IMG/VR virus record: IMGVR_UViG_3300042691_038698
Location: 1-32,038 of that record
Length of the DNA: 32,038 nt
DNA from: a virus
Strand: one strand, 5' to 3'
Position numbers and translations under genes: made by a program. The notes beneath the pieces were generated by a model. The model had not been told where the DNA came from and searched no databases. It saw only the letters and a program-made list of their open reading frames with translations. Below are positions 16,601-32,038 of the stretch, one piece after another; position 1 is the stretch's first letter, and every line of letters begins with the position of its first letter.

Positions 16601-16623
16601 TCCCTGACAGAAAGGAGATAGGA

Positions 16624-19041: not shown

Positions 19042-19223
19042 AACTGCGATACGAAATCATTTTTCGTGAAGGGTACAAATACTGGACTGAACACTACATA
19101 GTGTTGTATGCCCCGCGTTGCATGAGTGCAAAGTTTCGGGGGACAGTTGCATATAAGGACTACAAGAGCGCAGAGCGAGCAGCAAAGCGCATGGGCTTTG
19201 AGCCGAGGGAGGAAAAGAAATGA
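19038..19223 (+). CDS. Small unknown protein (61 aa)
   Basis: Starts by ATGA overlap with the previous gene. The product is basic, with aromatic beta-like KLRYEIIFREGYKYWTEHYI and a C-terminal helix YKSAERAAKRMGFEPREEKK. Not recognised. The tail codons contain GGGAGGAAAAG, which serves the next start. Confidence 0.6.
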   Translation: MKLRYEIIFREGYKYWTEHYIVLYAPRCMSAKFRGTVAYKDYKSAERAAKRMGFEPREEKK

Positions 19224-19778: not shown

Positions 19779-20053
19779 CCCGCGACGACATCATCCGCAT
19801 AGCGCAGGAGGCAGGCGCTGTCCCGTCAGGCGATCCACAAGAGTGGGATGTCTGGCTGTTCCAAGACCCTTCGATGGACCGATTCGCCGCCCTGGTTGCT
19901 GCCGAGAAGGACAAAGAGATCAAGCGACTGCAGGACATGCTGTACGAACAACTGGGCGAACTTACGGCGTTGCGGGCGGAGAAACAAATGCGTACACGCC
20001 TTGAACAACAAATGCGTGTACTCACTAAACAACTGAAGGAGGAGAAGGTATGA
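19775..20053 (+). CDS. Small phage protein, MTRDDIIR-type (copy 1)
   Basis: This 92-residue protein has the N-terminal module MTRDDIIRIAQEAG, then EWDVWLFQ and DRFAALVAAEKD, and a C-terminal coiled coil (LQDMLYEQLGELTALRAEK). The first 45 residues and the DNA beneath them are nearly identical to the gene at 21164, while the C-termini differ, a sign of module exchange. ATGA overlaps at both ends. Confidence 0.7.
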   Translation: MTRDDIIRIAQEAGAVPSGDPQEWDVWLFQDPSMDRFAALVAAEKDKEIKRLQDMLYEQLGELTALRAEKQMRTRLEQQMRVLTKQLKEEKV

Positions 20054-20550
20054 GCAACAACATCACGCTGCCCCGAGAGGTAGTGGAGCAGTTGTTGAAG
20101 ACGTTGAAAAACAGCGCGCACTGGAGTCGTTTGTATTACGGAAGCAGGGAAGTTGGTGACGCTATTCAAGCCCTCCGCACCGCCCTCGCCGCCGAGCCGA
20201 CGAAGCCCGAGCCTGTGGGCGTAATGCAAGAGTCTGATCTCCTCAAAGGTCTGGTCATCCCGGTGGTTACACAGGAGTTGCCGGTGGGAACGCTGCTCTA
20301 TGCCGCCCTTGTTGCTGCCGAGAAAGAACAGCAGATGATTGAGGCCGGATGGCGCAAGTGCGCCGTTGGTCAACGCACCACGCAGTTTTGCGGGCTGCTT
20401 GACGAAGCGGTGAAGGCCGAGCGTGAGGCGTGTGCGCTGTTTCTTGAGTCAGGTATTGATCTAAAGGGGCTTAGCCCGGGGATTCAGGCGTTCATTGTAG
20501 ACTTGTTGACGGGCTTCGCCGCCGCAATCCGCAAGCGAGGGGAGACATGA
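20050..20550 (+). CDS. Phage protein, NITLPREVV-type with long C-terminus (copy 2)
   Basis: This 166-residue protein has N-terminal MSNNITLPREVVEQLLKTL and ALRTALAAEP, shared with the gene at 19539. A C-terminal part includes LYAALVAAEKEQQMIEAGW, KAEREACALFLE and the tail AAIRKRGET. The KAEREACA and RKRGET elements also occur in the MTRDDIIR-type protein at 21164, so this looks like a mosaic of two module families. The RKRGET codons contain the ribosome binding site of the next gene. Confidence 0.7.
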   Translation: MSNNITLPREVVEQLLKTLKNSAHWSRLYYGSREVGDAIQALRTALAAEPTKPEPVGVMQESDLLKGLVIPVVTQELPVGTLLYAALVAAEKEQQMIEAGWRKCAVGQRTTQFCGLLDEAVKAEREACALFLESGIDLKGLSPGIQAFIVDLLTGFAAAIRKRGET

Positions 20551-20765
20551 TTAAACTTACTTACGAAATTTTTTGTGATTTGTGCAGCGAAGGATGCGGC
20601 ATGCAGGAGTACACATGCAACAATTACCCTTCGTTTAACTTTCCAAGACCCACGAACGATTTTTCTTATTACCTGCAAACACAACAACTAGAGTTGTGCA
20701 ACGACTGCGCTGCTCCATTAGTTGAGGCTTTACGCGAAGCCGTCCGCAAGCGAGGTGAGACATGA
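20547..20765 (+). CDS. Small Cys-rich, putative zinc-ribbon protein (72 aa)
   Basis: CDLCSEGC near the N-terminus and CNDCAAP near the C-terminus give two CxxC pairs, suitable for a zinc ribbon. The linker is aromatic. The protein ends EAVRKRGET, as do two neighbours. ATGA overlap at start and end. The ribbon is a prediction from spacing only. Confidence 0.58.
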   Translation: MIKLTYEIFCDLCSEGCGMQEYTCNNYPSFNFPRPTNDFSYYLQTQQLELCNDCAAPLVEALREAVRKRGET

Positions 20766-20977
20766 ACAGTGATCGAAGCTTTTTCACCTTTCTCTTATTC
20801 TTGGCGGCGCTGTTTGCAGTTGTGGTGACCAGTTTGCTGCTCTTGGCTTCCGCCGCGGTAGGTCGCGCCGATGACTTCCGCGAACGCTGCGAAGCGGCGG
20901 GCGGCAGGACTATTTCCACGCGTCTTGAGTTGTTGTGCATGAAGAAAGAGCAGTTTGTGGAGGTTGGACATGAGTAA
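20762..20977 (+). CDS. Small membrane or exported protein (71 aa)
   Basis: A hydrophobic stretch at about residues 7-33 (FFTFLLFLAALFAVVVTSLL) is followed by a soluble part with two cysteines (FRERCEAAGG, LLCMKKEQF). It could be a signal-anchored periplasmic peptide; the short ASAAVGRAD segment could also be a signal peptidase site. ATGA overlap at its start, eight-base overlap with the next gene. Confidence 0.58.
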   Translation: MNSDRSFFTFLLFLAALFAVVVTSLLLLASAAVGRADDFRERCEAAGGRTISTRLELLCMKKEQFVEVGHE

Positions 20978-21167
20978 CCACATCATAAGCCGTCGAAAGA
21001 TCATCAAGTGGGCGCGACAGGCTGACCGCGACTGGGATCGCGACATGAACCCGATTGCTTGGCTAGAGTTTTTCGCCGCCGACGTTCAAGCCGAGGCCGT
21101 TCGTAAAGAGCGGGAGGCGTGCGCGCGCCGTGCAGCGTCTGCAATCCGGAATGGGGGTAAGCCATGA
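20970..21167 (+). CDS. Small unknown protein (65 aa)
   Basis: ATG at 20970 follows GGAGGTTGGAC. The product begins MSNHIISRRKIIKWARQAD and ends AVRKEREACARRAASAIRNG. The KEREACA element is shared with other proteins of this chain. Not recognised otherwise. Its stop overlaps the next start as ATGA. Confidence 0.6.
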   Translation: MSNHIISRRKIIKWARQADRDWDRDMNPIAWLEFFAADVQAEAVRKEREACARRAASAIRNGGKP

Positions 21168-21415
21168 CCCGCGACGACATCATCCGTATGGCGCAGGAGG
21201 CGGGCGCTATCCCGTCAGGCGATCCCCGAGAGTGGGATGTCTGGCTGTTCCAAGGCCCTGCGATGGCCCGCTTCGCTGCCCTTGTTGCCGCTGCCGAGCG
21301 TGAGGCGTGTGCGAAGGTGTGTGACGAAATCGAACGTGGCCCTGCAATGATGATTGAGGAACGGCACACAGCGCGACAATGCGGCGCCGCCATCCGCAAG
21401 CGAGGTGAGACATGA
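21164..21415 (+). CDS. Small phage protein, MTRDDIIR-type (copy 2)
   Basis: This 83-residue protein has MTRDDIIRMAQEAG, EWDVWLFQ, FAALVAAAEREACAKVCDEI and the tail AAIRKRGET. It is the complete form of this widespread small phage family; copy 1 at 19775 has lost the second half to a coiled coil. Function unknown. ATGA overlaps at both ends. Confidence 0.72.
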   Translation: MTRDDIIRMAQEAGAIPSGDPREWDVWLFQGPAMARFAALVAAAEREACAKVCDEIERGPAMMIEERHTARQCGAAIRKRGET

Positions 21416-21444
21416 GTGGCCGTGAAGCGAAGGAGAAGAAATGA
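21412..21444 (+). CDS. Ten-residue micro-ORF between coupled genes
   Basis: MSGREAKEKK starts in an ATGA overlap and ends in an ATGA overlap. Its codons contain AAGGAGAAGAA, the ribosome binding site of the next gene. It may be a relay that passes ribosomes along or a decayed gene end rather than a functional peptide. Confidence 0.4.
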   Translation: MSGREAKEKK

Positions 21445-21539
21445 CAACCCTCAAACACTTTCTGTGCCGACTGCTGGGTCACCGAAACGACATCTTTGGC
21501 GATATACCCAATGAACAACGACGGGAGGACAAGACATGA
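21441..21539 (+). CDS. Micro-ORF, 32 aa
   Basis: MTTLKHFLCRLLGHRND and a charged tail ending RREDKT. The tail codons carry the GGGAGGACAAGACATGA junction, shared with three other sites. Coupled on both sides. Function unknown. Confidence 0.5.
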   Translation: MTTLKHFLCRLLGHRNDIFGDIPNEQRREDKT

Positions 21540-21625
21540 CTGAGAAACAACTTCTCACTGCCGTTTTTTGGGCGGTGTGTTTTTTGATAGGGCTTGTGGT
21601 TGGCGCAATCAGAGGTGGCAGATGA
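21536..21625 (+). CDS. Single-pass membrane micro-protein (29 aa)
   Basis: MTEKQLLTAVFWAVCFLIGL with VVGAIRGGR forms one hydrophobic helix with a basic C-terminus. ATGA overlap on both sides supports translation. It resembles many tiny phage membrane peptides in size only. Confidence 0.5.
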   Translation: MTEKQLLTAVFWAVCFLIGLVVGAIRGGR

Positions 21626-21906
21626 AAGAGTTTAAGATGACGATGATAGAGGCTCCCAGTCCTGGAGGCGTCGGCGCCTGCGAACAGGCAACCGTGGCTG
21701 ATTGGGGTGCGCTGGGGGTAAACACGGTTAATTGGATGGCTGAGGAGAAACGCCGAGAGCGCCGCGAGAAGATTGCGGGGATTGCGTTGCGGGGGCTGTT
21801 GGCGCAGTCGGTGTATTGGTTGCCTGAAAAAGCCGCCAAAGAGGCGGTAGAACATGCAGACGCGTTGATCGCGGAACTCGACAAGCCGAAGGAGGAGCAG
21901 GTATGA
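21622..21906 (+). CDS. Small phage protein, RRERIA...DALIA-type (copy 2)
   Basis: This 94-residue protein has an unrelated N-terminal 40 residues (MKEFKMTMIEAPSPGG...) and a C-terminal module EKRRERREKIAGIALRGLLA ... EAVEHADALIAELDKPKEEQV. The module matches the proteins at 17178 and 21903. Function unknown. The tail codons contain the AAGGAGGAGCAGGTATGA junction. Confidence 0.7.
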   Translation: MKEFKMTMIEAPSPGGVGACEQATVADWGALGVNTVNWMAEEKRRERREKIAGIALRGLLAQSVYWLPEKAAKEAVEHADALIAELDKPKEEQV

Positions 21907-22190
21907 GTAACGAGCAGACAATATGGGCGCGTTACATGGAGGACATACAACAACAGGAAAAAGCGTTAGAAGATCGGTGGAAACGCGACCGCCGCGAGCG
22001 CATTGCGGGGACTGCGTTAGAAGATCGGTGGAAACGCGACCGCCGCGAGCGCATTGCGGGGACTGCGTTGCAGGGGATGTTGGCGTACGATGGCGGGCAA
22101 CTGCCGATTGATCGGGGGGCAGTATGGGCGGTCGCACACGCCGACGCGCTGATCGCGGAACTCGACAAGCCGAAGGAGGACAAGACATGA
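21903..22190 (+). CDS. Small phage protein, RRERIA...DALIA-type (copy 3)
   Basis: This 95-residue protein has the family module RRERIAGTALQGMLA and AHADALIAELDKPKEDKT. The part ALEDRWKRDRRERIAGT is present twice in tandem because of an exact 51-bp duplication. The duplication keeps the frame and lengthens a charged helix by 17 residues. ATGA overlaps at both ends. Confidence 0.72.
   Translation: MSNEQTIWARYMEDIQQQEKALEDRWKRDRRERIAGTALEDRWKRDRRERIAGTALQGMLAYDGGQLPIDRGAVWAVAHADALIAELDKPKEDKT
21963..22064 (+). repeat. Exact 51-bp tandem duplication
   Basis: Two identical 51-bp units (21963-22013, 22014-22064) followed by the first bases of a third (GCGTT at 22065). The length equals 17 codons, so the host gene stays open. 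Perfect identity points to a very recent event or an assembly artefact. Confidence 0.9.
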
Positions 22191-22402
22191 GTGATAGCAA
22201 GCAGTCTGAGTACTTGTACGATCGGCTACGTAACTCGAACCACCAGGCGCAGCGTTACCTGCTTTCTCGGATCGGTGAGCTCGAGGAGGAGATCCTGGAG
22301 CTGCACGCGGCACGTAGCCGGGCGTTGGTTGCCGAGGTCGTCCTGGTTGTCGTGTGTTTGCTGGTAGGGTATGCCGTGGGGGTTCATTATGGTCTCGGTT
22401 GA
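22187..22402 (+). CDS. Small protein: coiled coil plus C-terminal TM helix (71 aa)
   Basis: After a polar N-terminus comes a short coiled coil (LLSRIGELEEEILELHAARS) and a hydrophobic helix (ALVAEVVLVVVCLLVGYAV) near the C-terminus. The layout is that of a tail-anchored membrane protein. No lysis partner is seen. ATGA overlap at its start. Confidence 0.62.
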   Translation: MSDSKQSEYLYDRLRNSNHQAQRYLLSRIGELEEEILELHAARSRALVAEVVLVVVCLLVGYAVGVHYGLG

Positions 22403-22598
22403 CAACGAGTCTCCGCCGGGATCCTGGCAGAAGGAGATTGAACTGCAGCCGTGGAAGTATCCGCAGCAGCAGAAGGTGGGTTGGGCGTTGTCTGAGATGC
22501 GGCTGCGCGGGCTGCTTGTAGAGGCGGATATACTCGCCCAGGAGCTCTCCACGCTACAGGCGGAGCTCTCCTTACTTCGGGCGAGGAGTTCACGATGA
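22389..22598 (+). CDS. Small unknown protein (69 aa)
   Basis: MVSVDNESPPGSWQKEIELQPW, then a helical, probably coiled-coil C-terminus (ADILAQELSTLQAELSLLRARSS). The ATG at 22389 is preferred because GGGGGT lies at a suitable distance; an ATG at 22371 in the same frame is the alternative. Overlaps the previous gene by 14 bases and the next by ATGA. Confidence 0.58.
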   Translation: MVSVDNESPPGSWQKEIELQPWKYPQQQKVGWALSEMRLRGLLVEADILAQELSTLQAELSLLRARSSR

Positions 22599-22687
22599 GT
22601 CGCAAGGCGGTACTTGAGCGGTTGCTTGGCAAGGAAGCTGCGAAGAAGTTTCTTCCCAAGCGCAAGCGCCCCCGAAAAAAGAGATGA
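22595..22687 (+). CDS. Highly basic micro-protein (30 aa)
   Basis: MSRKAVLERLLGKEAAKKFL followed by a run of Lys, Arg and Pro to the stop. ATGA overlap with the previous gene and an upstream GCGAGGAG support translation. It could bind nucleic acid. It is the last gene before the next promoter. Confidence 0.5.
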   Translation: MSRKAVLERLLGKEAAKKFLPKRKRPRKKR

Positions 22688-22694
22688 GGAGGTG

Positions 22695-22723
22695 TTGCAC
22701 TAGTTGATTTCGTTTGCTATAAC
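22695..22723 (+). promoter_or_regulatory. Sigma-70-like promoter
   Basis: TTGCAC (22695-22700), a 17-bp spacer beginning TAGTTGATT, and TATAAC (22718-22723). It is the best -10 of the three TTGCA promoters. The next gene starts at 22759 behind AGAAAGGAG. Confidence 0.6.
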
Positions 22724-22758
22724 GTCTGAGTTCGTTTTCACAAGAAAGGAGATTGATG

Positions 22759-22989
22759 ATGGAAGATCACACAGGTGTTGCGTTTGCTGCGTTTATCACA
22801 GGGATCGTTTTGTTCCTGTTGGGCGTGCTGGGGCTGATGGCCTACGAGATCCACATGCGCGCGAAGGTCATTGCCGGGTCTTCGGACCCGATAGCGGCCG
22901 CTTGTGCGTACGACGGTCCGGCGGGACGCGACGGCGTGCCCTCGACCTGCCTCACTTACCTTTTCCGTAACCAGGAGTTTTCACGATGA
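22759..22989 (+). CDS. Small membrane protein (76 aa, one TM)
   Basis: MEDHTGVAFAAFITGIVLFL and LLGVLGLMAYEIHM form a long N-terminal hydrophobic helix; a Cys-containing soluble tail follows. ATG at 22759 sits seven bases after AGGAG; an ATG three bases upstream is possible. First gene of its transcription unit. ATGA overlap with the next gene. Confidence 0.62.
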   Translation: MEDHTGVAFAAFITGIVLFLLGVLGLMAYEIHMRAKVIAGSSDPIAAACAYDGPAGRDGVPSTCLTYLFRNQEFSR

Positions 22990-23561
22990 GTCGTTTGAAG
23001 TCGAAGAGCGCCAAGAGCTCGAAGCGTGTCAGGGCCGGGAAGCGGGGCGAGAAGAGTGCCCGGGTGCTGGCGTGGTTTCAGGCCAATCCGGGCGCCAAGG
23101 TGGCAATAGTGGCTCGGCGCTGCGGCGTGTCGCTGCCGCTGGCGTACAAGATCCGCAACAGCCTCCGGGCGGATGCCGCCCTGCGGGAGCAGGGTCAGCA
23201 GGCTCCCGAGCAGGTGGAGGAGGCTCCTGCCTCTTCGCCACTGGTGGTCTTTCCCGAGGTCGCTGTTGACGGTTCCGTGCCGGTCCTCTCGTCGACGGAG
23301 TCGCTTCTTGGCGCTCGGGCCACGACCCACGGGACTTTCTGTGTAACGGCTCGGCTCTCGCAGGCGCTCAAGCGCACGCTGGCCGAGCATGCGCGGGACG
23401 TCGGCAAGGACTTCACGGACGACCAGTGGGAAGCGCTCGAGATGGTGGCGACCAAGCTTGCGCGGATCGTCAGCGGCGATCCGGACACGCGGGAGCACTG
23501 GGACGACATCGCGGGCTACGCGACGCTCGTGTCGGATCGGCTGCGGGGGATTGTCCGGTGA
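22986..23561 (+). CDS. DUF6378-like phage protein with N-terminal HTH-like region
   Basis: This 191-residue protein has a basic N-terminus (about 25 residues), then VAIVARRCGVSLPLAYKIRN, which may be a helix-turn-helix. A linker rich in Gln, Glu and Pro follows. The C-terminal domain has WEALEMVATKLARIVSGDPD and HWDDIAGYATLVSDRL, typical of the DUF6378-like family in phages; the family call is from memory. Its stop overlaps a GTG as GTGA. The last 70 bases lie in a 101-bp tandem duplication. Confidence 0.7.
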   Translation: MSRLKSKSAKSSKRVRAGKRGEKSARVLAWFQANPGAKVAIVARRCGVSLPLAYKIRNSLRADAALREQGQQAPEQVEEAPASSPLVVFPEVAVDGSVPVLSSTESLLGARATTHGTFCVTARLSQALKRTLAEHARDVGKDFTDDQWEALEMVATKLARIVSGDPDTREHWDDIAGYATLVSDRLRGIVR

Positions 23562-23693
23562 GGCCGGCAGTCCCTTCGACGCCGGAGCCGCCGGAGCACT
23601 GGGACGACATCGCGGGCTACGCGACGCTCGTGTCGGATCGGCTGCGGGGGATTGTCCGGTGAGGCCGGCAGTCCCTTCGACGCCGGAGCCGCC
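23492..23693 (+). repeat. Exact 101-bp tandem duplication across a gene junction
   Basis: Units 23492-23592 and 23593-23693 are identical, with GGAG at each boundary (23492, 23593, 23694) as microhomology. The unit spans the end of the DUF6378-like gene and the beginning of the next gene, including their GTGA overlap. Because 101 is not a multiple of three, the copies are read in different frames. Confidence 0.92.
23558..23662 (+). CDS. Chimeric 34-aa ORF made by the 101-bp duplication
   Basis: A GTG start in the first repeat copy opens the frame of the downstream gene (RPAVPSTPEPP), which at the repeat boundary continues into the end of the upstream gene (EHWDDIAGYATLVSDRLRG). It stops in the second GTGA overlap. 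It is coupled at both ends. Probably a by-product of duplication and not selected for function. Confidence 0.45.
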   Translation: MRPAVPSTPEPPEHWDDIAGYATLVSDRLRGIVR

Positions 23694-23895
23694 GGAGGAG
23701 ATCGCCTCCGTCGAGTTGAGGGAGTACGTTGCGGCGCTGCGCCGGCGGGTGGAGGTGGCCCAGGACCTCGCCGCCGCGCTGGTGAGCGACGTGCACCGGC
23801 TGCGCGGGGAGAACCAGGAGCTTCAGGCCCAAGTCTCACGGCTCCGTGTCGACTTGCAATGGCATGAGGCGCAGCGCACGATGGAGCCCTCATGA
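23659..23895 (+). CDS. Small coiled-coil protein (78 aa)
   Basis: GTG start in the second copy of the duplicated junction. After a Pro-rich N-terminus (RPAVPSTPEPPEEIA) the protein is one long helix with heptad pattern (ALRRRVEVAQDLAAALV and LRGENQELQAQVSRLRVDL). Not recognised. Its stop overlaps the next start as ATGA. Confidence 0.62.
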   Translation: MRPAVPSTPEPPEEIASVELREYVAALRRRVEVAQDLAAALVSDVHRLRGENQELQAQVSRLRVDLQWHEAQRTMEPS

Positions 23896-24128
23896 GCGCC
23901 CCTGTCGTCAAGTTCGTGCCGGTGGACGACCTTCCGCTGGTTCAGCTGTTGATCATCACGATCAACGGGACGCAGTACGCGCTCGTCGGGCCCGTGATCC
24001 ACGTTCCAGGGAACAACCCGTCTTTCAATATCACCGAGATCGAGTTCGGTGACATCCTGCCCGCGAGCGCCGCGGCGCGGATGTTGGAGGGGGCGTTTCG
24101 GGAGCACATGGGCTCGAAGGTGCAGTGA
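23892..24128 (+). CDS. Small unknown protein (78 aa)
   Basis: ATGA overlap at its start. Beta-rich sequence with PLVQLLIITINGTQYALVGPVIH and FNITEIEFGDILPASA, then a C-terminal helix. Compact globular fold likely. Directly precedes the dioxygenase gene with a one-base overlap, so a shared role is possible but unproven. Confidence 0.62.
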   Translation: MSAPVVKFVPVDDLPLVQLLIITINGTQYALVGPVIHVPGNNPSFNITEIEFGDILPASAAARMLEGAFREHMGSKVQ

Positions 24129-24931
24129 TGGGCTCCGCGGACATCGACCGATGGATCCGGGAGCAGCACGGGGCCGGCCACTCGCGTAACCAGCTGTTAC
24201 ACCAGCTGATCACGTACGGGTGGTCGGCGCCTGTGGCCGAGAAGGCGCTGGCCGCCGTGCTCGGTGAGCCTGGGCCGGCGGTGCCGCAACAGCGGGAGGT
24301 CGAGATCGAAGGGCACCGCGTGGAGGTGCTCGTGAACCTCCAGCAGCCCCGCTTCGCCTACCTGCGCGGGCTGCTTACCCGGGAAGAGTGCGAGGCGCTC
24401 ATCGAAGCGGCTCGGCCACGACTCGTCCCCTCCGCCGTTGTGGACTCCGAGACAGGAGGGAACGTGCCCCACGCCGCGCGCGTGAGCGACGGCATGGCGT
24501 TCGAGGTGGGGGAGCTGCCGCTGCTCGATCGGATCGAGTGGCGGATACAGGGCCTTGTGTCATGGCCCATGGGCCACGGCGAGGCTATCCAGGTCCTGCG
24601 GTACCGCCCCGGCGGCCGCTACGACCCCCACTTCGACTATTTCGACCCCAAGGTGCCAGGCTCGAGCCGGCCACTGGCCCAGGCGGGCAACAGGGTGGGG
24701 ACGCTGATCATGGTCCTGCAGGCGCCGGAGACGGGCGGGGAGACGGTGTTTCCTGATGCAGGGCTCACGGTCCACGGGCGCCAGGGGGACGGGATTCTGT
24801 TCACCTACGGGCGCCCTGACCCGTCCACGAAGAGCCTCCACGGGGGCTCGCCGGTGGTCCGGGGGGAGAAGTGGATCGCCACGAAATGGTTTCGAGAGTC
24901 AGAATATTCGGTTGCGCGGCCGCCTCCCTAG
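24128..24931 (+). CDS. Prolyl-4-hydroxylase-like 2OG-Fe(II) dioxygenase
   Basis: This 267-residue enzyme has the iron ligands H168-F-D170 in YDPHFDYF and H238 in SLHGGSPV, and K248 in GEKWIATKW, placed ten residues later to bind 2-oxoglutarate, as in P4H. LRGLLTREECEALIE and VLQAPETGGETVFP are further family marks. The first 45 residues form a small helical domain (WIREQHGAGHSRNQLLHQLI) often found in bacterial P4H homologues. It should hydroxylate a prolyl residue using oxygen and 2-oxoglutarate. The substrate is unknown; a PPGG-rich virion protein is encoded at 1179-3209. ATG at 24128 is preferred over GTG at 24125. A terminator follows. Confidence 0.9.
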   Translation: MGSADIDRWIREQHGAGHSRNQLLHQLITYGWSAPVAEKALAAVLGEPGPAVPQQREVEIEGHRVEVLVNLQQPRFAYLRGLLTREECEALIEAARPRLVPSAVVDSETGGNVPHAARVSDGMAFEVGELPLLDRIEWRIQGLVSWPMGHGEAIQVLRYRPGGRYDPHFDYFDPKVPGSSRPLAQAGNRVGTLIMVLQAPETGGETVFPDAGLTVHGRQGDGILFTYGRPDPSTKSLHGGSPVVRGEKWIATKWFRESEYSVARPPP

Positions 24932-24957
24932 AGATCCTTCCCTCGTGTTGGCCGCGG

Positions 24958-24990
24958 CCCCCGGAGACGAGAGTTTCCGGGGGTTTTTTT
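24958..24990 (+). terminator. Strong intrinsic terminator
   Basis: CCCCCGGA (24958-24965) pairs with TCCGGGGG (24976-24983), followed by seven T (24984-24990). It ends the unit that includes the dioxygenase gene. Confidence 0.9.
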
Positions 24991-25000
24991 CGGGCTGGGG

Positions 25001-25034
25001 TGCATGAATATGCATGGATCATGCATGAATATGC
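25001..25034. repeat. Direct repeats TGCATGAATATGC around a palindrome
   Basis: TGCATGAATATGC occurs at 25001-25013 and 25022-25034, a 21-bp period (two helical turns). Between and overlapping them is the inverted repeat ATGCATG-GAT-CATGCAT (25010-25026). ATATGCAT recurs at 25296-25303. The layout suits protein binding sites. No coding gene is seen from 24932 to 25422. Confidence 0.7.
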
Positions 25035-25152
25035 GTACGGGAGGGGGACAGGAGGGGGTTGGAGGGGCAAGGGGAAGGGAGCAAGGGCCACGGACCGCGG
25101 ACCACGGGGCTGAAAACCGACCGCAGGATGGCCAAAAAGGGGCGTTTTCGGA

Positions 25153-25372
25153 GGTTTCATATAGACCTCCAGCCATAAAATTTTTCTGTTTCGAATTTTT
25201 CAAATTCAGCGTATTGAGCGTAATTGAGGTAATAGTTCTTGTGTATCAAGTACTTAGGTACTGTACAGTCTACTTACAGTACTCAAGTGATGAAATATGC
25301 ATAAAAATCGCGCGGGGGTTGAGTTTTTAGTTTTCGTTTTTTTTTTATGGCTAGAAAGTCTATATAGAAACC
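25153..25372. repeat. Long inverted repeat bounding an AT-rich core
   Basis: The left arm (25153-25180) and right arm (25343-25372) are inverted copies. Matched blocks are TTTTATGGCT, TCTATAT and GAAACC, separated by small mismatches; a further CGAAAA match lies outside each arm. The core of about 160 bp is very AT-rich compared with the rest of the genome and holds another palindrome. Possible origin of replication, packaging site or control region. Confidence 0.7.
25252..25288. promoter_or_regulatory. Imperfect 14-bp inverted repeat (operator or iteron candidate)
   Basis: ACTTAGGTACTGTA (25252-25265) faces TACAGTACTCAAGT (25275-25288) across nine bases, with 12 of 14 positions complementary. 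It includes a perfect 10-bp palindrome ACTGTACAGT (25260-25269). It sits in the middle of the AT-rich core. Confidence 0.55.
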
Positions 25373-25422
25373 CGAAAATTGGGGTCCTGGACGGGTTTGT
25401 TGTCCTGTTGTAGGCTGTCGTT

Positions 25423-25638
25423 ATGTTGGAGATCGAGACAGACGTCCCCTTGCCGGGCAACCTCGGGCGGTTGAAGTACCCCTTCGACGACATGCACGTG
25501 GGTGACAGCTTCCTGATCACGGACCCGGGGATGGTCAAAAACGCTCGAAGTGCTGCATGGATGTATGCCAAGCGTCATGGCCAGCGATTTTCATGCAGGC
25601 GGGTGGAAGACGGTTGGCGGGTCTGGAGAGTCGCGTGA
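25423..25638 (+). CDS. Small conserved phage protein before small terminase
   Basis: This 71-residue protein has LKYPFDDMHVGDSFLI, then SAAWMYAKRHGQRFSCRRVEDGWRVWRV. This pattern (YPF.DM..GDSF ... A..YAKRHG..F..R) is familiar in many small phage proteins of unknown function. No clear ribosome binding site precedes the ATG. Its stop overlaps a GTG as GTGA, the likely start of the next gene. Confidence 0.75.
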   Translation: MLEIETDVPLPGNLGRLKYPFDDMHVGDSFLITDPGMVKNARSAAWMYAKRHGQRFSCRRVEDGWRVWRVA

Positions 25639-26378
25639 CCAGCAAGAAAGAGGACGCCTTCATGGCGCGCATAGGCCGCGGCATCCCCCAGACCACGCTG
25701 GACAAGATCAGCCAGCCGGTCGTCGACAAGAAGCCCACAGGCAACAAGTCGCGCCGGCGCGACCAAGCCCTGACCACGCAGGAGTGGAAATTCGTCAACG
25801 AGTTCGTCGCCGGCGACGGCCACGTCACCGCCAAGGAGGCAGCCCTCCGGGCGGGGTACCCGGAGAAGCGCGCCAAGTACTACGCCGAGACCCTGACGGA
25901 CCCGGGCATCAATCCGCACATCGTGGCGGAGATCCAGAAGCTGCGGGCGGAGTTTGCCGAGAGGTACGGCACGACCTACGAGCGCCACATGCGCGACCTG
26001 CAGCTGATCAGGGATCAGGCACTGGCTGCCGGCGCCTACGGCGCCGCGGTGCAGGCTGAGTACCGCCGCGGGCAGGCCCTTGGGACGATCTACATCGACC
26101 GCAAGGAGATCCGCCACGGCACGATCGACTCGATGAGCAAGGAGGAGGTCCTGCGCAAGCTGCAGGAGATCCAGAAGCTTTACGGCAACGGCTCTCCCGT
26201 CATCGACGTGACCCCGACGCAGGTCGCGGACAGCCTCCAGCACGAGGATCCGCCCCCACCAGAGGAGCCCGAGCCCCCCAATGAAGCCCGAGACCCGCCT
26301 GTATCACCGCCTCAAAGACAATCTTTCGAACTGCCTTATTACCCGGGTCGAAACCTGGGTGAACCTGGGGATACCTGA
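25635..26378 (+). CDS. Putative terminase small subunit, possibly frameshifted at the C-terminus
   Basis: This 247-residue protein has TTQEWKFVNEFVAGDGHVTAKEAALRAGYPEKRAKYYAETLTDPGINPHIVAEI, the helix-turn-helix pattern of phage small terminases, followed by a helical oligomerisation region (RHMRDLQLIRDQALAAGAYGAAVQAE). Small terminase recognises the packaging site. The GTG at 25635 (GTGA overlap) is chosen; ATG at 25662 is an alternative. After the acidic Pro-rich tail the frame runs on for 98 bases over the next gene. One extra C in the C6 run at 26274-26279 would instead stop it in an ATGA overlap. No large terminase follows in the window. Confidence 0.75.
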   Translation: MTSKKEDAFMARIGRGIPQTTLDKISQPVVDKKPTGNKSRRRDQALTTQEWKFVNEFVAGDGHVTAKEAALRAGYPEKRAKYYAETLTDPGINPHIVAEIQKLRAEFAERYGTTYERHMRDLQLIRDQALAAGAYGAAVQAEYRRGQALGTIYIDRKEIRHGTIDSMSKEEVLRKLQEIQKLYGNGSPVIDVTPTQVADSLQHEDPPPPEEPEPPNEARDPPVSPPQRQSFELPYYPGRNLGEPGDT

Positions 26379-26694
26379 CTGCCTGGTCGCGCTCAAGGGG
26401 CGGCGCGCTTTCGTGCCGGTCGAGCTCAAGGTAGTGACCAAGGGCAGGAAGGTCCCGCTCCGTCCCCATCAGGTCGCGTTCCATAGGCGCCATGCCGCGA
26501 TCAAGTGCTCCACGTTCGTTCTGGTCCTGCATGTGCCATTTGGCAAGGTGGCCACGAGGGAAGGGAGGCTGCTCCTCTACCACAACAGCCAGATCCTCGA
26601 GCTCGTACAGTCAGGGGTCGACACGGCACCCACTGCCGCGTGGCCCTATGGGTCCGTGCCATGGGGGATGCTCGAGCATGAACTAGGGAAGTAG
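26281..26694 (+). CDS. VRR-NUC / resolvase-like PD-(D/E)XK nuclease
   Basis: This 137-residue protein has E4, GIPDCLV (D33), VELK (E48-x-K50) and LRPHQ (Q64), the catalytic set of the small phage VRR-NUC nucleases, which are often annotated as Holliday junction resolvases. It could trim branched DNA before packaging, which fits its place next to the small terminase gene. The ATG lies within the extended end of that gene; no good ribosome binding site is close, so coupling is likely. Confidence 0.85.
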   Translation: MKPETRLYHRLKDNLSNCLITRVETWVNLGIPDCLVALKGRRAFVPVELKVVTKGRKVPLRPHQVAFHRRHAAIKCSTFVLVLHVPFGKVATREGRLLLYHNSQILELVQSGVDTAPTAAWPYGSVPWGMLEHELGK

Positions 26695-26731
26695 TTGACA
26701 GGGGCGCTGCCCTCTGGCAGGCTTTTAGGTC

Positions 26732-26757
26732 GCCGGGTTGTCCGGCCTAGAAAGGAG
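26732..26757 (+). promoter_or_regulatory. Hairpin plus CTAGAAAGGAG leader (copy 1)
   Basis: GCCGG (26732-26736) pairs with CCGGC (26742-26746), directly followed by CTAGAAAGGAG (26747-26757). The ATG is 20 bases from the C of CTAG. The same layout occurs at 27871 and 29106. A TTGACA (26695-26700) lies upstream but without a clear -10. Confidence 0.6.
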
Positions 26758-26766
26758 AAAGACATC

Positions 26767-27234
26767 ATGAGGGCTATTTTCCCGAAGTGCACCGACGAGA
26801 ACTACATCGTCTCGGTCCTGCAGCAGAACAACATCATCAGCGTTTGCGCGGTCTTTTCTGGCCGCGACGACAATGTTGAGATCCATGGCCTCTATTTTCA
26901 CGAGAGGGACGCAGAAGGCATGTTGGTTGCGAAAGACATCGGCCATCTGCCAGTCGATGGCTGGGAGAAGCATGAGGGGGTAGAGAACGGGAGATGGAAA
27001 TACAAGGTTGTCCGCGATAGGACGACACTGAGCGAGCAGTTTAAGCGCATATGCTGCGACGCGCTCGAAGCAACTACCCTTGACTGGTGCAGTGGACATG
27101 GCGGCCGGGGGCAGTTGGACATTTTGCTTAACGAAAAGGGCGAACTTGAGTTCGACCTAGAGATCGGCATTCACGTCGTCGAGGTGGTGAGTCACGATTT
27201 CAGGTTTAACGGCAACGGCACGGAGTTACTCTAA
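26767..27234 (+). CDS. Unknown accessory protein, possibly DUF6878-like
   Basis: This 155-residue protein starts at the ATG after the CTAGAAAGGAG leader. It has FPKCTDENYIVSVLQQNNI, IHGLYFHERDAEG, TTLSEQFKRICCDAL and, towards the end, LDWCSGHGGRGQLDILLNEK followed by FDLEIGIHVVEVV. The last part resembles the W..x.GG.G...... pattern of DUF6878-like proteins, a weak similarity. Its stop overlaps the next start (TAATGA). Likely part of a three-gene accessory unit. Confidence 0.7.
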   Translation: MRAIFPKCTDENYIVSVLQQNNIISVCAVFSGRDDNVEIHGLYFHERDAEGMLVAKDIGHLPVDGWEKHEGVENGRWKYKVVRDRTTLSEQFKRICCDALEATTLDWCSGHGGRGQLDILLNEKGELEFDLEIGIHVVEVVSHDFRFNGNGTELL

Positions 27235-27518
27235 TGACCATCGAGATTGTTAGTGTCCCTTCGCGCCGTCGCGCGCTCGGGTTCGAGGTGTTCGAGCGCC
27301 GATACGGTCCTGTCCTTGGGGAGGACGAGCAGCCTTTGCGACCATGGGACGATGACCTGGTGCGCAGGACAGATCAGCAATGCGTCTGGACCGTCGTTGA
27401 CTGTGACGGGGTCTTGCGGATTGTGCCGGGGTTCGTGACGGTCAATTACTTTGCTCGCATCGTCACCCGTCGCGGCTGGTCTCACGTCGAGTTCCTCAAT
27501 CCCGGTTATGTCTACTGA
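27234..27518 (+). CDS. Small unknown protein (94 aa)
   Basis: Beta-rich sequence (IEIVSVPSRRRALGFEVFER, WTVVDCDGVLRIVPGFVTVN, HVEFLNPGYVY). The ATG overlaps the previous stop by one base (TAATG). No motif recognised. Probably co-expressed with its neighbour. Confidence 0.65.
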   Translation: MTIEIVSVPSRRRALGFEVFERRYGPVLGEDEQPLRPWDDDLVRRTDQQCVWTVVDCDGVLRIVPGFVTVNYFARIVTRRGWSHVEFLNPGYVY

Positions 27519-27783
27519 ACCGGGGGCCGTGAGGCGTATCAAACTGCCCCCCAGACGTAAGTTCTGGGGGTGGGATTATCGGAGAGATCAACAGTTGAGG
27601 ATGACCGGCACGGAGTGGCACGTCCACGCGGGAGTCGAGTATTTCAGGCACCCGCCGCGAGGCGACGCCGCTATCGGCGGGCATTGTGAAATTTGGCTAG
27701 ATGGAAAAGACGCAGGACACGGCAATATCCGCCCCCCTTGCCCCCTAAACCAGAAAACCTCTCCCGCTCGTTCTACAAGATAG
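27508..27783 (+). CDS. Possible small His-rich protein (91 aa)
   Basis: The ATG at 27508 lies ten bases before the end of the previous gene, but no ribosome binding site is evident. The frame codes MSTEPGAVRRIKLPPRRKFW, later WHVHAGVEYFRHPPRGD and GGHCEIWLDGKDAGHG; several His and Cys could bind metal. A stable hairpin (CCCCCAGA at 27548-27555, TCTGGGGG at 27563-27570) lies near its 5' end. Coding status is uncertain. Confidence 0.4.
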   Translation: MSTEPGAVRRIKLPPRRKFWGWDYRRDQQLRMTGTEWHVHAGVEYFRHPPRGDAAIGGHCEIWLDGKDAGHGNIRPPCPLNQKTSPARSTR

Positions 27784-27870
27784 TGGCGCGGCTGGTTTTC
27801 TTTGCCCTCGTTCACATGATTTTTGCAGGGAGGGATTGACGACACGAAAGAGACCTGAAACACTTCGCGA

Positions 27871-27903
27871 GTCGGGGCATGGTGTCCCGACACTAGAAAG
27901 GAG
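27871..27903 (+). promoter_or_regulatory. Hairpin plus CTAGAAAGGAG leader (copy 2)
   Basis: GTCGGG (27871-27876) pairs with CCCGAC (27886-27891), followed by CTAGAAAGGAG (27893-27903); ATG 20 bases from the C of CTAG. A weak promoter TTGACG-17-AACACT (27836-27864) lies just upstream. The rest of the 27784-27912 gap shows nothing else. Confidence 0.6.
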
Positions 27904-27912
27904 AATTTGACA

Positions 27913-29001
27913 ATGGCAACACTTACCGAAGCGAGCAGGCAATGGTCGACGCGCCCCCTTGAGGAGCGCTTTACTAGCCTCCCTGCGATGCAGCAGGCGC
28001 TCGAGACTCTGCGAGAGAGCAGCAGCGCGGCCGTAATTAGTTCGCGGCAACTCTCTGCGGCACCGACGGGGGATAACCGCGGGCTTGTCGTCATCGGTCC
28101 GGACGGCTCGCCTATGGTTCCGACCAACTGGGCTTTTGGTCAGTTGGCGACACTCTCCGGGGCGCCGGCCGCGTACCTGCGGACGATTCCGGCGCCGCTC
28201 GCGGCCGACTGCCTGAATTACGGGCTGAAGGTCGAGCGCGATGCGCAGGATACGGGCGTCCTGCTCACGCGTTCGTCGGGGGTCACGACGATGCGCGCGG
28301 CCACGGGGCCGCGCTACGGTCGCATCTGGAACGTCGACGTTGTGCGCGCGTTGTCTGATCGGTTTGGCGACGGGGTTACGGGGGACTTCCGGGTCCCGGG
28401 AATCTTTGGTCAGGCGCTCGATACCGTGACGACGGACAACACTACGCTGTTCGCCGGCGACCGTGACATGTTCGTCTTTCTTGCCGACGAGAAAAATAGG
28501 CTCGAAATCCCCAATCGTCGCGGCGGCAGTACCGGGCAACTCGCGCGCGGGTTCTTTGTGACTAATTCCGAAACTGGCGCGGGCGCGTTGCGGATCAAAA
28601 CTTTCCTATTCGATTACGTGTGTGCGAATAGGATCGTATGGGGCGCCCACGAGCTCGATGAAATTGCGATTCGGCATACTGCCAGTGCTCCGGATCGGTT
28701 CATCGAAAAGGCGGCTCCCGCATTGCTCGCATACGCGCGCGCCAGTGCTGACGAAGTGGAAACAGTACTGCGGACGGCTCAGGTTTCGAAGGTCGATAAG
28801 GTCGACGCGTTCCTTGCGTCACGTTTCGGGCCGCGCGTTGCGGAGCGCATTAGCCAGGTGCATCAGTCCGAGGAAGGGCGCCCTATTGAAACGGTCTTTG
28901 ATGCGGTCACCGGCGCCACGGCATATGCTCGCAGCATTCCGTTTCAAGCGGAGCGTGTCGCCTTCGAAGAGACGGCGGGGGCGCTGCTCGACATGGTGTA
29001 A
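27913..29001 (+). CDS. DUF932 family phage/plasmid protein
   Basis: This 362-residue protein matches the pattern of DUF932 proteins found on phages and plasmids: WAFGQLATLSGAPAAYLRTIP, LTRSSGVTTMRAATGPRYGRIWN, MFVFLADEKNRLE, ARGFFVTNSETGAGALRIKTFLFDYVCANRIVWG, and a C-terminal SIPFQAERVAFEETAG. The molecular function is unknown; members are frequently linked with DNA modification or anti-restriction loci, but no catalytic motif is visible here. Start ATG 27913 follows the CTAGAAAGGAG leader. A terminator follows at 29023, so it forms a single-gene unit. Confidence 0.85.
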   Translation: MATLTEASRQWSTRPLEERFTSLPAMQQALETLRESSSAAVISSRQLSAAPTGDNRGLVVIGPDGSPMVPTNWAFGQLATLSGAPAAYLRTIPAPLAADCLNYGLKVERDAQDTGVLLTRSSGVTTMRAATGPRYGRIWNVDVVRALSDRFGDGVTGDFRVPGIFGQALDTVTTDNTTLFAGDRDMFVFLADEKNRLEIPNRRGGSTGQLARGFFVTNSETGAGALRIKTFLFDYVCANRIVWGAHELDEIAIRHTASAPDRFIEKAAPALLAYARASADEVETVLRTAQVSKVDKVDAFLASRFGPRVAERISQVHQSEEGRPIETVFDAVTGATAYARSIPFQAERVAFEETAGALLDMV

Positions 29002-29022
29002 GGCGGCGGGACCTCTCGCCAG

Positions 29023-29060
29023 CGGCCGGCATTCCCACGGGTGCCGGCCGTTTTTTTTTT
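29023..29060 (+). terminator. Intrinsic terminator after the DUF932 gene
   Basis: CGGCCGGCA (29023-29031) pairs with TGCCGGCCG (29042-29050), followed by ten T. Its stems and flanks are the same as those of the terminator at 31637. Confidence 0.92.
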
Positions 29061-29105
29061 GTAGGGCCTTGTTTTTTGTCAGGCCACCTAGGTAATCTCG
29101 GCATG

Positions 29106-29130
29106 CGGTCGTTTGACCGTCTAGAAAGAG
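29106..29130 (+). promoter_or_regulatory. Hairpin plus CTAGAAAGAG leader (copy 3)
   Basis: CGGTC (29106-29110) pairs with GACCG (29115-29119) across GTTT, followed by CTAGAAAGAG (29121-29130); ATG 21 bases from the C of CTAG. The hairpin sequence GGTCGTTTGACC shares GTCGTTTGA with the leader at 9442-9450. Confidence 0.6.
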
Positions 29131-29141
29131 AGAAAGCCCAT

Positions 29142-30581
29142 ATGACGATTCTTACCCCCCATATCCGCGGCCTCGCATCGGACCCCCAGCGGGCCGCGCG
29201 GGCAGTCGATCATTTTTGTGAACGCATCCAGTCTGCGCGCGATTCGGAGACACTTTGGCAGACACTGGACACGCTTCGGAATCTCTACGTTGCGTCGAGC
29301 GACTGGAGCACCCCTGAACAGGTGGCCGTTCTCGACCTCATCAATGATGTGGTCGATCGGCGGACGGAAAGCGGCGATCCTTTAACGCGCCTGTATGCCA
29401 TGCGGGCGCCGGACAGTCCGATCTACCAGCAGGATGCTGCCGCCAGTCTTGAGCTGATCCGGGAAGGCAACTCCGGGGGGCTGCTCGAAGTCGAAGCGAT
29501 GGAGCTCATCAGGCAGCACCATCAGGTTATGGTCTGCGACCACTGCGACCAGCCTTACCTTGGCCGCCATATGCAACGGGTCGCGCGACGCGATAGTGAG
29601 TACGTCTGCCGCGACTGTCGAAGCGATGACAACGTCTGGATTTACAGCACGTACTATGCCGGCTGGCTGCGTCGCGACGGGTCCGGCACTGGTCGGTTGG
29701 CCAACGGTGATGTCGTCGTAATCGAGGAGAGCGATGAGTCTTTCTTTTGGAACAACCTTGAGGAGGAATTCCACCACGTCGAGCGCGGCCGGCAGGCGGT
29801 GATTTGCCCCTACCACAGCAGTAAGGAATTCTTTGTCCCACAGCCCGATGATTGGTCTCGGGGTCACAACGGCCGGCTGTTCGGTGTAGAGCTTGAGGTC
29901 GAGGTCGCAAACGGTGGTCGGCCTGAGGATGTCGCGCGCGGAATCAATGCAGTGGTTAACGTAAACGGCCGTAAAGGCTCGCCGATATTTTTCGAGCGGG
30001 ACGGGTCGCTGACCTCAGGATTTGAATTGATCACACAACCGATGAGTCTGCCGGTTCAGCGTGAGTTCTGGACCCGTGCGCTCACGGCTCCCGATGTGTG
30101 GCGTAGTGTCCGCAGCCACCGTACGTCGACGTGCGGGCTCCATGTTCACGTTTCGCGCGAAGGTCTAACTAACCTGACAATCGCGCGGGCCGTAACGTTC
30201 ATTCATGATCCGCGGAACGACGCATTCGTTCAGGCGCTCGCGAGGCGTTACAACACGGGGTTCTGCAAGTACGTGGAAAAGGACCTTAGCACCGCTCATA
30301 CCAGTCACGATCGGTATGAGGCGCTGAACATTACGGGACGTGAAACGATCGAGTTTCGTTTGTTCCGTGGATCATTGAAGTCCGATGCTGTCGTGGCGGC
30401 GTTGGAGTTCTCCCACGCGTTGCTTGAGTTCTGCGCGCGTGAGCAGCTGGACGCGACCGGATTAAATGCGCGCGCATTTTTGACCTGGTGCTTACGTGAG
30501 CTGCCCGAAGACACCGCGACATTGCGTAGTTACGTTGAGCAGCGGACCGCCGGCACTTATGCGCACGCGGCCGTCGCCTAA
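29142..30581 (+). CDS. Amidoligase (glutamine-synthetase-like fold) with zinc ribbon
   Basis: This 479-residue protein has a helical N-terminus of about 125 residues, a zinc ribbon with C132/C135 and C156/C159, and an amidoligase domain: FGVELEVE (E250, E252, E254), ERDGSLTSGFELITQP, CGLHVHVS (H334, H336) and TIEFRLFRGS (E404, R406). Such enzymes use ATP to join a carboxylate to an amine, forming an amide or peptide bond; phage members were predicted by comparative genomics to modify peptides or cell wall. The partner is the class II amidotransferase encoded 39 bases downstream. ATG 29142 follows the leader; upstream in-frame codons lack support. The substrate is unknown. Confidence 0.85.
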   Translation: MTILTPHIRGLASDPQRAARAVDHFCERIQSARDSETLWQTLDTLRNLYVASSDWSTPEQVAVLDLINDVVDRRTESGDPLTRLYAMRAPDSPIYQQDAAASLELIREGNSGGLLEVEAMELIRQHHQVMVCDHCDQPYLGRHMQRVARRDSEYVCRDCRSDDNVWIYSTYYAGWLRRDGSGTGRLANGDVVVIEESDESFFWNNLEEEFHHVERGRQAVICPYHSSKEFFVPQPDDWSRGHNGRLFGVELEVEVANGGRPEDVARGINAVVNVNGRKGSPIFFERDGSLTSGFELITQPMSLPVQREFWTRALTAPDVWRSVRSHRTSTCGLHVHVSREGLTNLTIARAVTFIHDPRNDAFVQALARRYNTGFCKYVEKDLSTAHTSHDRYEALNITGRETIEFRLFRGSLKSDAVVAALEFSHALLEFCAREQLDATGLNARAFLTWCLRELPEDTATLRSYVEQRTAGTYAHAAVA

Positions 30582-30620
30582 GCTTTCAATCTTTGATCAA
30601 TCACAAAGGAAACAATCAAC

Positions 30621-31607
30621 ATGTGCTTACTCGTTCACCAGCCCGCCAACGTCACCATGTCTGACGGGTTCCTGCAGAGTGTCTATTCGTTGAATCGCGA
30701 CGGTCTCGGCGTGATGTACTCGAAGGCCGGGCAGCTCGTCGTCGCGAAGGCGCTTCCCCGGTCGGCCGCGGAGTTCATCGCCTTGATCCGCGAGCATGCC
30801 GACGGCAGGGAGTCGATCTGGCACGCGCGCATGAGGACGCACGGGGACATCGACCTTGATAACTGCCATCCTTACTCGATAACCGATGATGTCGCTCTCG
30901 CTCACAATGGCATTCTCGGCGCGGGCAACTCGTCGAACTCGGCCAAGAGCGACACGTGGCATTTTGTGCAGTTCGTCGTACGGCCGGCCGTGCTGGCCGA
31001 CCCTTCCATCGTCGAGGACCCGGACTGGCAGGCCTATATCGGCCAGCTGATCGGCTCGTCGAACAAGTTCGGGCTGTTCACCGCGACCGGCGCGGCGATC
31101 ATCATCAATCGCGCCGCGGGGCTCATGCACGCGGGGGCATGGCTGTCGAACCGGTACGCGTGGCGCGACGATTCCGCATACGAGCCTGCCGGCTATGGCG
31201 CGTGGGGGTCGCGAGTCTGGGGCGGTGACGACTGGCAGGAATATCGGCCGGGGCGCTACCGGTACGTCGGCGAGACATCGAGCACGGCGACCTCGACCAC
31301 GGCGGCGACCTCGAGCACGGCGGCGACCTCGAGCACGGCGGCGACCTCGAGCACGCGCGGAAGGCGGGCAGGTCGCAAGGTGTACTCCGCACGCGACCTG
31401 CGGCGCGCGGCATTGAACAGTTACCGGCGGGGCACGTTGCGGCTCTGGGTCGAGGACGCACCGGCGAAGGCGAATGCCTTTCTGGACGCGTTGGACGCGG
31501 GAGCGGACCTCGACGCGGAAGCGGACCCCGAGGCGGTCGTGCTCGCCCTGCGGCAGTGGTTCCAGAGTGAGGGCGCGCGTGAGGCCAGCATGGGCGCCAC
31601 GTTCTAG
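30621..31607 (+). CDS. Class II glutamine amidotransferase (Ntn hydrolase)
   Basis: This 328-residue protein starts MCLLVHQP; Cys2 becomes the N-terminal nucleophile after Met removal. WHARMRTHGDIDLDNCHPY and ALAHNGIL are the expected Arg/His and Asn-Gly motifs of the glutaminase site. The Ntn domain covers about residues 2-175. A repetitive Thr/Ser/Ala linker (about 219-245) leads to a C-terminal helical part (VYSARDLRRAALNSYRRG; ADPEAVVLALRQWF) absent from plain glutaminases. It should release ammonia from glutamine for the upstream amidoligase. AAAGGA lies 14 bases before the ATG. A terminator closes the unit. Confidence 0.88.
   Translation: MCLLVHQPANVTMSDGFLQSVYSLNRDGLGVMYSKAGQLVVAKALPRSAAEFIALIREHADGRESIWHARMRTHGDIDLDNCHPYSITDDVALAHNGILGAGNSSNSAKSDTWHFVQFVVRPAVLADPSIVEDPDWQAYIGQLIGSSNKFGLFTATGAAIIINRAAGLMHAGAWLSNRYAWRDDSAYEPAGYGAWGSRVWGGDDWQEYRPGRYRYVGETSSTATSTTAATSSTAATSSTAATSSTRGRRAGRKVYSARDLRRAALNSYRRGTLRLWVEDAPAKANAFLDALDAGADLDAEADPEAVVLALRQWFQSEGAREASMGATF
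31275..31355 (+). repeat. 18-bp in-frame repeats coding TSSTAA
   Basis: About four tandem units of an 18-bp repeat (units at 31290, 31308, 31326 and partial at 31344), the first with one base change. They code a Thr/Ser/Ala linker in the amidotransferase. Copy number may vary. Confidence 0.85.
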
Positions 31608-31636
31608 GCGCTGTCGAGATGGTCGACGTCGGCCAG

Positions 31637-31671
31637 CGGCCGGCATCCTCGCGGGTGCCGGCCGTTTTTTT
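31637..31671 (+). terminator. Intrinsic terminator after the amidotransferase gene
   Basis: CGGCCGGCA (31637-31645) pairs with TGCCGGCCG (31656-31664), followed by seven T. About 36 of 39 bases, including the flanking CCAG, equal the terminator at 29023. Confidence 0.92.
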
Positions 31672-31746
31672 GCCCAGGTGCTGCTCCCGATCTCGCCCAG
31701 GTGCTGCTCCCGATCTCGCCCAGGTGCTGCTCCCGATCCCGCCCAG
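31672..31746. repeat. 23-bp tandem repeats (three copies plus partial)
   Basis: Units at 31672, 31695 and 31718 begin GCCCAGGTGCTGCTCCCGAT; the third has one change near its end, and a partial GCCCAG follows. Non-coding. A further direct repeat, GCCCAGCAGGCCGGC, occurs at 31741 and 31813. Confidence 0.88.
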
Positions 31747-31958
31747 CAGGCCGGCCGGTATGGGATGCCGGGGGCTCTCGCAGGGCACTGCAGCAGAGTC
31801 CCGTGTTCCGCCCAGCAGGCCGGCTCCGGCGGTCTCCGGGGCCCTGACGGGCTCATGGCCCATGGTTCGTGGCGCGTCGATCTGTGCGCGCGGTATGCGG
31901 CCGTGGTCCGTGTTTGTTACCTGCCGGTCTAGCTGCTCGGGCCGTGGTCCGTGGGGCG

Positions 31959-32038
31959 CTGGCCGAGCTCCGCTGGTCGAGGTCCGCTGGTCGAGGTCCG
32001 CTGGTCGAGGTCCGCTGGTCGAGGTCCGCTGGTCGAGG
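31959..32038. repeat. 14-bp tandem repeats at the window edge
   Basis: Four perfect units TCGAGGTCCGCTGG from 31977 to 32032, a degenerate unit before them (31963-31976), and a partial unit reaching the last base. The array may continue beyond the window. No gene is supported between 31608 and 32038. Confidence 0.88.

Follow-up and report, generated by a model that had tools for sequence, protein, structure and literature searches.

An amidoligase–amidotransferase gene pair between near-identical terminators beside a DUF932 gene in an environmental phage fragment

Several described systems combine an amidoligase with a glutamine amidotransferase, and here we compare them with a pair of such genes found in a 32,038-bp virus fragment from environmental DNA (IMG/VR record IMGVR_UViG_3300042691_038698; the whole of this stretch is referred to as the window), where the two genes follow a DUF932 gene and lie between two near-identical terminators, T1 and T2. 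The podovirus ‘peptidoglycan modification cassette’, for which a change to the host surface has been proposed (PMC5498523), is known from PSA-HP1, phiEco32, LUZ24, PaP3 and tf (compare StenR_269 in locus L004) and likewise includes an amidoligase and a glutamine amidotransferase, but adds a gamma-glutamyl cyclotransferase, an ATP-grasp protein and a second amidoligase, whereas the window has the two genes only. Adjacent genes for an Amidoligase_2 protein and a class II glutamine amidotransferase (GATase), with the amidotransferase downstream, are also present in MEP401/MEP402 (Zobellviridae, OM43) and in mycobacteriophage Marvin (gp105/gp106), and their catalytic domains can be aligned with those of the window pair; however, the amidoligase identity is 24–26%, and these pairs belong to other phage families, occupy other sites and have different N-terminal regions.

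Taken singly, the window amidotransferase is like the GlmS glutaminase domain and EgtC in fold and signature residues, but it has no synthase domain, and in its place are a linker predicted to be disordered and a region of four C-terminal helices. The window amidoligase shares the glutamine synthetase (GS) fold of its residues 242–473 with the carboxylate-amine ligase YbdK and with glutamine synthetase (Z ~12), but at ~12–15% identity, and it has two further parts, a zinc ribbon and a helical domain at the N-terminus. For Staphylococcus aureus, PMC3267633 describes MurT–GatD as a co-encoded ligase and glutamine amidotransferase which amidate a wall carboxylate. The two-protein plan of ligase and amidotransferase is common to MurT–GatD and the window pair, as an analogy only. 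The MurT–GatD folds, a Mur ligase and a class I GATase, are unrelated to those of the window pair.

We consider it probable that the interval is a two-gene unit, closed by terminators and placed in an exchangeable slot between the genes for DUF932 and the terminase large subunit (TerL), which encodes one enzyme system making primary amides from glutamine and ATP. Pairs of this kind and their predicted chemistry were already known from the literature; the genomic setting of the window pair is informative, and the alternation of the pair with DUF7227 is a lead.

The paired genes and their products

The two genes and the domains of their products are as follows.

29142..30581, + strand: amidoligase gene (479 amino acids; PF12224, 3.6e-9; AlphaFold2 mean predicted local distance difference test score (pLDDT) 86.5)
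29142..29519, + strand: N-terminal all-helical domain, residues 1–126 (DSSP of the model; many relatives also have a long N-terminus that opens similarly)
29535..29618, + strand: four-cysteine zinc-ribbon-like element (C132, C135, C156, C159)
29865..30560, + strand: glutamine-synthetase-fold catalytic domain, residues 242–473 (VIA-align and invariant residues)
30621..31607, + strand: class II glutamine amidotransferase gene (328 amino acids; PF13230; family profile to GlmS glutaminase 1xff, 4.3e-9)
30621..31154, + strand: N-terminal-nucleophile (Ntn) glutaminase domain, residues 1–178, Cys2 nucleophile (Foldseek to GlmS and EgtC)
31182..31358, + strand: disordered linker, residues 188–246 (Ala/Thr/Ser; pLDDT <50; 18-bp repeats)
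31389..31568, + strand: C-terminal four-helix region, residues 257–316 (model)

We gathered 87 phage loci, consisting of 80 amidoligase loci from a profile-guided scan of viral contigs together with the first matches and three GenBank phage records (some of these are duplicates), and the amidotransferase adjoins the amidoligase in 85 of them, with the other two cut by contig ends. After removal of near-duplicates both genes are found in 52 of 55 lineages, and the next commonest neighbour of the amidoligase, DUF932, is found in at most 13 of the 55. The amidoligase precedes the amidotransferase in all of the phage loci except two (L083 and L085, where the amidotransferase is upstream). A similar arrangement was found in bacteria, mostly Ruminococcus and other Oscillospiraceae, with a GATase gene adjoining or close behind the amidoligase in 74/80 loci. 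We take this near-obligate adjacency as strong evidence that both proteins work together. The recurrent bacterial neighbours are DUF960, serine resolvases, MobA/VirD2-type relaxases and tyrosine integrases, and with such relaxase, resolvase and integrase neighbours the pair looks like mobile-element cargo; this neighbourhood, DUF960 included, suggests that the bacterial pairs (L261–L340) sit in integrative mobilisable elements. Among these same loci, Ruminococcus flavefaciens has several pairs per genome.

The amidoligase matches PF12224 (Amidoligase_2) with 37.3 bits against a curated cut-off of 22, and E250, E252, D287, E295, H334, H336, R391, E404 and R406 are invariant in 39 aligned amidoligases. 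As the amidoligase profile had no significant match to PDB sequences, a fold search was needed, and VIA-align placed residues 242–473 at Z 12.4 with the YbdK-type structure 1tt4 and at ~11–12 with glutamine synthetases; it should be noted that middling Z scores are common with this method, and the Pfam match and the residue pattern are therefore given equal weight. The zinc-ribbon motif is CxxC-x20-CxxC, of which C135, C156 and C159 are invariant and C132 is kept in at least 90% of the 39 sequences. Judged from the model, the protein would be made up of a GS-type catalytic domain, a zinc ribbon and a helical N-terminal domain.

The family profile of the amidotransferase matches the GlmS glutaminase (1xff, 4.3e-9), and Foldseek and profile searches lead to both this enzyme and EgtC; the Ntn domain is well predicted in the AlphaFold2 model (pLDDT 81.7). 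M1–C2 is invariant in 39 aligned amidotransferases, with the start sites in relatives picked by the Met-Cys motif. C2, R70, G97 and D111 are likewise invariant in the 39 sequences, T73, H74, G75, H95 and N96 are found in at least 90%, and the RxxTHG, HNG and SDT-type active-site motifs are all present along with the Ntn fold. The protein can be assigned to the class II glutamine amidotransferases and glutaminase activity is predicted. An array of 18-bp tandem repeats (31285–31360) encodes part of the linker, and W276, P281 and A284 of the C-terminal four-helix region are nearly invariant across the family.

The original prediction, made from the letters of the window, had taken the two genes as one amide-bond-forming unit, and the pairing, residue conservation and fold matches bear this out: structure prediction gave a GS-type amidoligase fold and a GlmS-like glutaminase, and the catalytic amidoligase Glu residues and amidotransferase Cys2, which it had named, are conserved. 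It had also pointed to the amidoligase zinc ribbon and long N-terminal domain and to the amidotransferase repeat linker and C-terminal helices as signs of an unusual substrate. All of these elements are present, but the helix region is common to the family and not novel, and because the zinc ribbon, the N-terminal domain and the C-terminal helices are family-wide they offer no argument for an unusual substrate in the window phage.

Predicted reaction and substrate

Based on these sequence assignments, the pair very probably puts amide groups on an acid using glutamine and ATP. The coupled ammonia-transfer reaction, which we infer from the enzyme families, would have Cys2 of the class II amidotransferase, N-terminal after removal of Met, freeing ammonia from glutamine to leave glutamate, and the GS-fold amidoligase using ATP to activate a carboxylate as an acyl phosphate, which would combine with the ammonia to give a primary amide; the two genes would be co-transcribed. 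Our tentative choice of substrate, and the likeliest of those considered, is a peptide carboxylate of the host cell wall, whose amidation would alter the infected cell's wall and shut out competitors or tune lysis. A block to superinfection through a change to the host surface or peptidoglycan has been proposed (PMC5498523; PMC10580990 and PMC11318856, both with reference to Iyer et al. 2009), and the cell wall or host peptide suggested as a possible target in the original prediction agrees with such proposals. The mobile-element setting in bacteria also fits competition between elements, and names no substrate.

A number of points weigh against this account. Such pairs are widespread in phages and mobile elements, but our literature searches turned up only predictions for them, including of the substrate, and we found no biochemical data on the window pair. 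As a single sequence, the amidotransferase is a marginal match to PF13230 (GATase_4; 23.1 bits with a cut-off of 23.0). A simple scan found no sigma-70-like promoter upstream of the cassette, and transcription from its own promoter and stopping at T1 and T2 are predictions from sequence only. Neither the window nor the 58-kb contig G001, which also carries the pair, gave a match to gamma-glutamyl cyclotransferase (PF06094), while the positive control StenR_269 was detected; a search for COOH-NH2_lig (PF14395) gave no match in the window or G001, and no control was detected either. As these searches did not reveal the wider wall-modification set, the substrate may differ, and with no gamma-glutamyl cyclotransferase, equivalence to the larger podovirus pathway cannot be assumed.

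The GS fold also includes peptide ligases at a similar structural distance (the Pup ligase PafA and glutamate-cysteine ligase) and the Ntn relatives include the amidohydrolase EgtC, and from these the amidoligase might be expected to join a larger amine or peptide, in tagging or in the synthesis of a small metabolite, while its amidotransferase-like partner would be an amidohydrolase or would trim the product. Secondary-metabolite roles for such pairs are mentioned, from Iyer 2009 and the Marvin paper, in PMC10580990. We regard this as rather unlikely, given that the retention of C2, R70, T73-H74-G75, H95-N96-G97 and D111 fits glutamine as an ammonia donor. It is very unlikely that the pair acts on a phage product (a virion protein or nucleotide) and not on the host: the slot does adjoin the terminase genes in the lineage of the window, but the pair is found at other sites in unrelated phages and, in bacteria, at loci which also hold mobile-element genes, and the window genes examined include no recognisable gene set for DNA hypermodification. 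Sister genomes which have or lack the pair at the same position provide a natural comparison through which to look for the substrate.

The slot and its terminators

The borders of the slot and the non-coding elements around the pair are as follows.

27913..29001, + strand: DUF932 gene, left slot border (362 amino acids; PF06067, 6.4e-8; PHROG 1362, 1.1e-43; in all slot relatives)
29018..29060, + strand: terminator T1, left repeat copy (stem 29021–29052, then a T run)
29105..29128, + strand: amidoligase leader (short stem-loop, then a TAGAAAG ribosome-binding region; same layout in relatives)
31632..31671, + strand: terminator T2, right repeat copy (stem 31635–31666, then a T run)

The window phage is HTVC023P/DSL-LC04-like, with related phages of ~60 kb (its DNA polymerase has 78% identity to that of phage DSL-LC04, which is 61.5 kb with Gammaproteobacteria as the annotated host, and 51% to that of pelagiphage HTVC023P). 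The contig ends ~430 nucleotides (nt) 3' of the amidotransferase stop, and the right-hand neighbour of the slot was therefore read from relatives instead. In the 80 loci of the nearest DUF932 relatives (67–80% identical) this neighbour is TerL, named from DSL-LC04, and the DUF932–TerL distance is 3.2–3.5 kb with the pair and ~0.64–1.7 kb without it. A search of whole records found the pair to be absent from 14 viral contigs and DSL-LC04 and present in G001, and ten of the 14 pair-free contigs (37–68 kb) do carry DUF932. A comparison of related phages for presence of the interval had been proposed in the original prediction, and it reveals a discrete cassette which is had or missing at one site, with many relatives lacking the pair. 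In L024 and L025 the pair is directly upstream of DUF932.

Among the loci L170–L249, DUF7227 (PF23872) lies immediately up- or downstream of DUF932 in most of the pair-free genomes. With near-duplicates removed, 11 have the pair without DUF7227, 21 have DUF7227 without the pair, one has neither and none has both, and the exclusion was also checked over whole contigs. Fisher's test gave p = 6e-8, a statistic which ignores kinship; on DUF932 trees the cassette state changes just 2–3 times, and the 1–2 independent contrasts are too few for significance. As kinship explains much of the pattern, the exclusion is an observation and no demonstrated rule, and the 2–3 switches indicate that cassette turnover is slow, with rapid gain or loss unsupported. 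The comparison supports the slot as a swappable, terminator-insulated cargo site, and the either/or relation offers a way to approach DUF932 and DUF7227, both of them families of unknown function.

In the window, two near-identical terminators surround the cassette as had been predicted: the direct repeat (29018–29057 and 31632–31671) is 40 nt long with 37/40 positions identical (93%), and the DUF932 gene ends shortly before the first copy, with its stop at 29001 and 19 nt before T1. T1 and T2 outrank all other terminator-like sites in 12039–32038 (14 counted pairs each), and the repeat motif was found neither in the rest of the window nor in 100 dinucleotide shuffles. The alignment of their flanks has a local score of 35 compared with ~13 at the 95th percentile when the letters are shuffled. 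Together these results rule out both chance and a repeat spread over the whole window as the source of the twin copies. Strong terminators are scarce, with three in the 32-kb window and 2–4 each in contigs G011, G001 and G019, and two of them bracket the slot cargo in the window, G011 and G001. Terminators on both sides of the cassette are also found in most cassette-bearing relatives (after DUF932 in 8/11 and after the amidotransferase in 11/11), where they begin 19–31 nt past the stop codons.

The likeness of the two copies is another matter. The flanking terminators are unlike in ten distinct cassette-bearing relatives (scores of 8–19, compared with 35 in the window), so a matched pair cannot be a conserved trait of the cassette, nor is it required there. 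Twins also occur at the same site around DUF7227 in L170 (38), L182 (29) and L171 (25), and this recurrence around different cargo indicates that a matching bracket arises repeatedly at the slot, whatever the cargo. The twins most likely arose locally, by copying or homogenisation (gene conversion) of the slot terminator.

The original prediction had instead pointed to the direct repeats at both ends as homology by which the cassette could be gained or lost. On this reading the terminators would be homology arms, and recombination between them, or of one copy with the lone terminator of a relative that lacks the cassette, would bring it in, take it out or exchange it. The 40-bp repeat in the window and the twins which bracket the mutually exclusive DUF7227 would suit this, and relatives of the L176 type do have a slot with one terminator and no cassette, though its sequence is unrelated to T1/T2. 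We nevertheless find it unlikely, given the unlike ends in ten relatives and the 2–3 state changes on the DUF932 tree, and no near relative with the same flanks and a single terminator copy was found. Since inheritance of the cassette is stable and its two ends are unlike in most cases, copying or local gene conversion is favoured over cargo-swapping recombination; the recurrence of twins around DUF7227 leaves some room for recombination, and the twin terminators are no more than a hint of how genes move here and are not diagnostic. A bolder proposal is that DUF932 works with an interchangeable partner, either DUF7227 or the pair, in a terminator-insulated slot by the terminase gene and exchanged via matching terminators. 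If true, DUF7227 would be a functional counterpart of the amidation system, and DUF932 would belong to the same host-takeover function, but we hold this to be a long shot. None of the amidoligase, amidotransferase, DUF932 and DUF7227 matched the PADLOC defence models.

In some relatives the loop of the DUF932 terminator contains TTGNNN, with a -10-like hexamer (CATACT, TATGAT) 15–19 nt downstream, just past the T run. This layout is present in 12 of 34 DUF932 terminators (L014, L015, L017, L019, L020, L090, L170, L173, L182, L186, L194 and L242), in none of 16 terminators after the amidotransferase and none of five after DUF7227, and is not seen in T1 of the window; in those 12 relatives the terminator and next promoter may overlap downstream of DUF932.

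Other features of the window

The leader of the amidoligase gene is one of three in this region of the window in which a G+C-rich stem-loop is followed directly by (C)TAGAAAG and then the start codon (26726–26761, 27871–27900 and 29105–29128), and this arrangement also recurs in relatives. Tandem repeats are found 3' of the cassette at 31672–31746 (23 bp x 3.3) and 31957–32038 (14 bp x 5.9), with the end of the contig falling inside the second, and in relatives the stretch before TerL is likewise full of short repeats (CTCGAG, CCTGG). Open reading frames called in this repeat-rich region (clusters c10, c13 and c23 among them) look like compositional artefacts and were not counted as genes. The TerL frame at L245:6889–8538 has an opening segment which resembles the C-terminal part of an intein. 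Further upstream in the window, a 2OG-Fe(II) oxygenase gene (24125–24931; PF13640, 9.9e-14) lies upstream of the small terminase gene, and the translation of an open frame at 17607–18590 has long Ala-rich repeats (AADAADAAWAAQAAADAA and similar).

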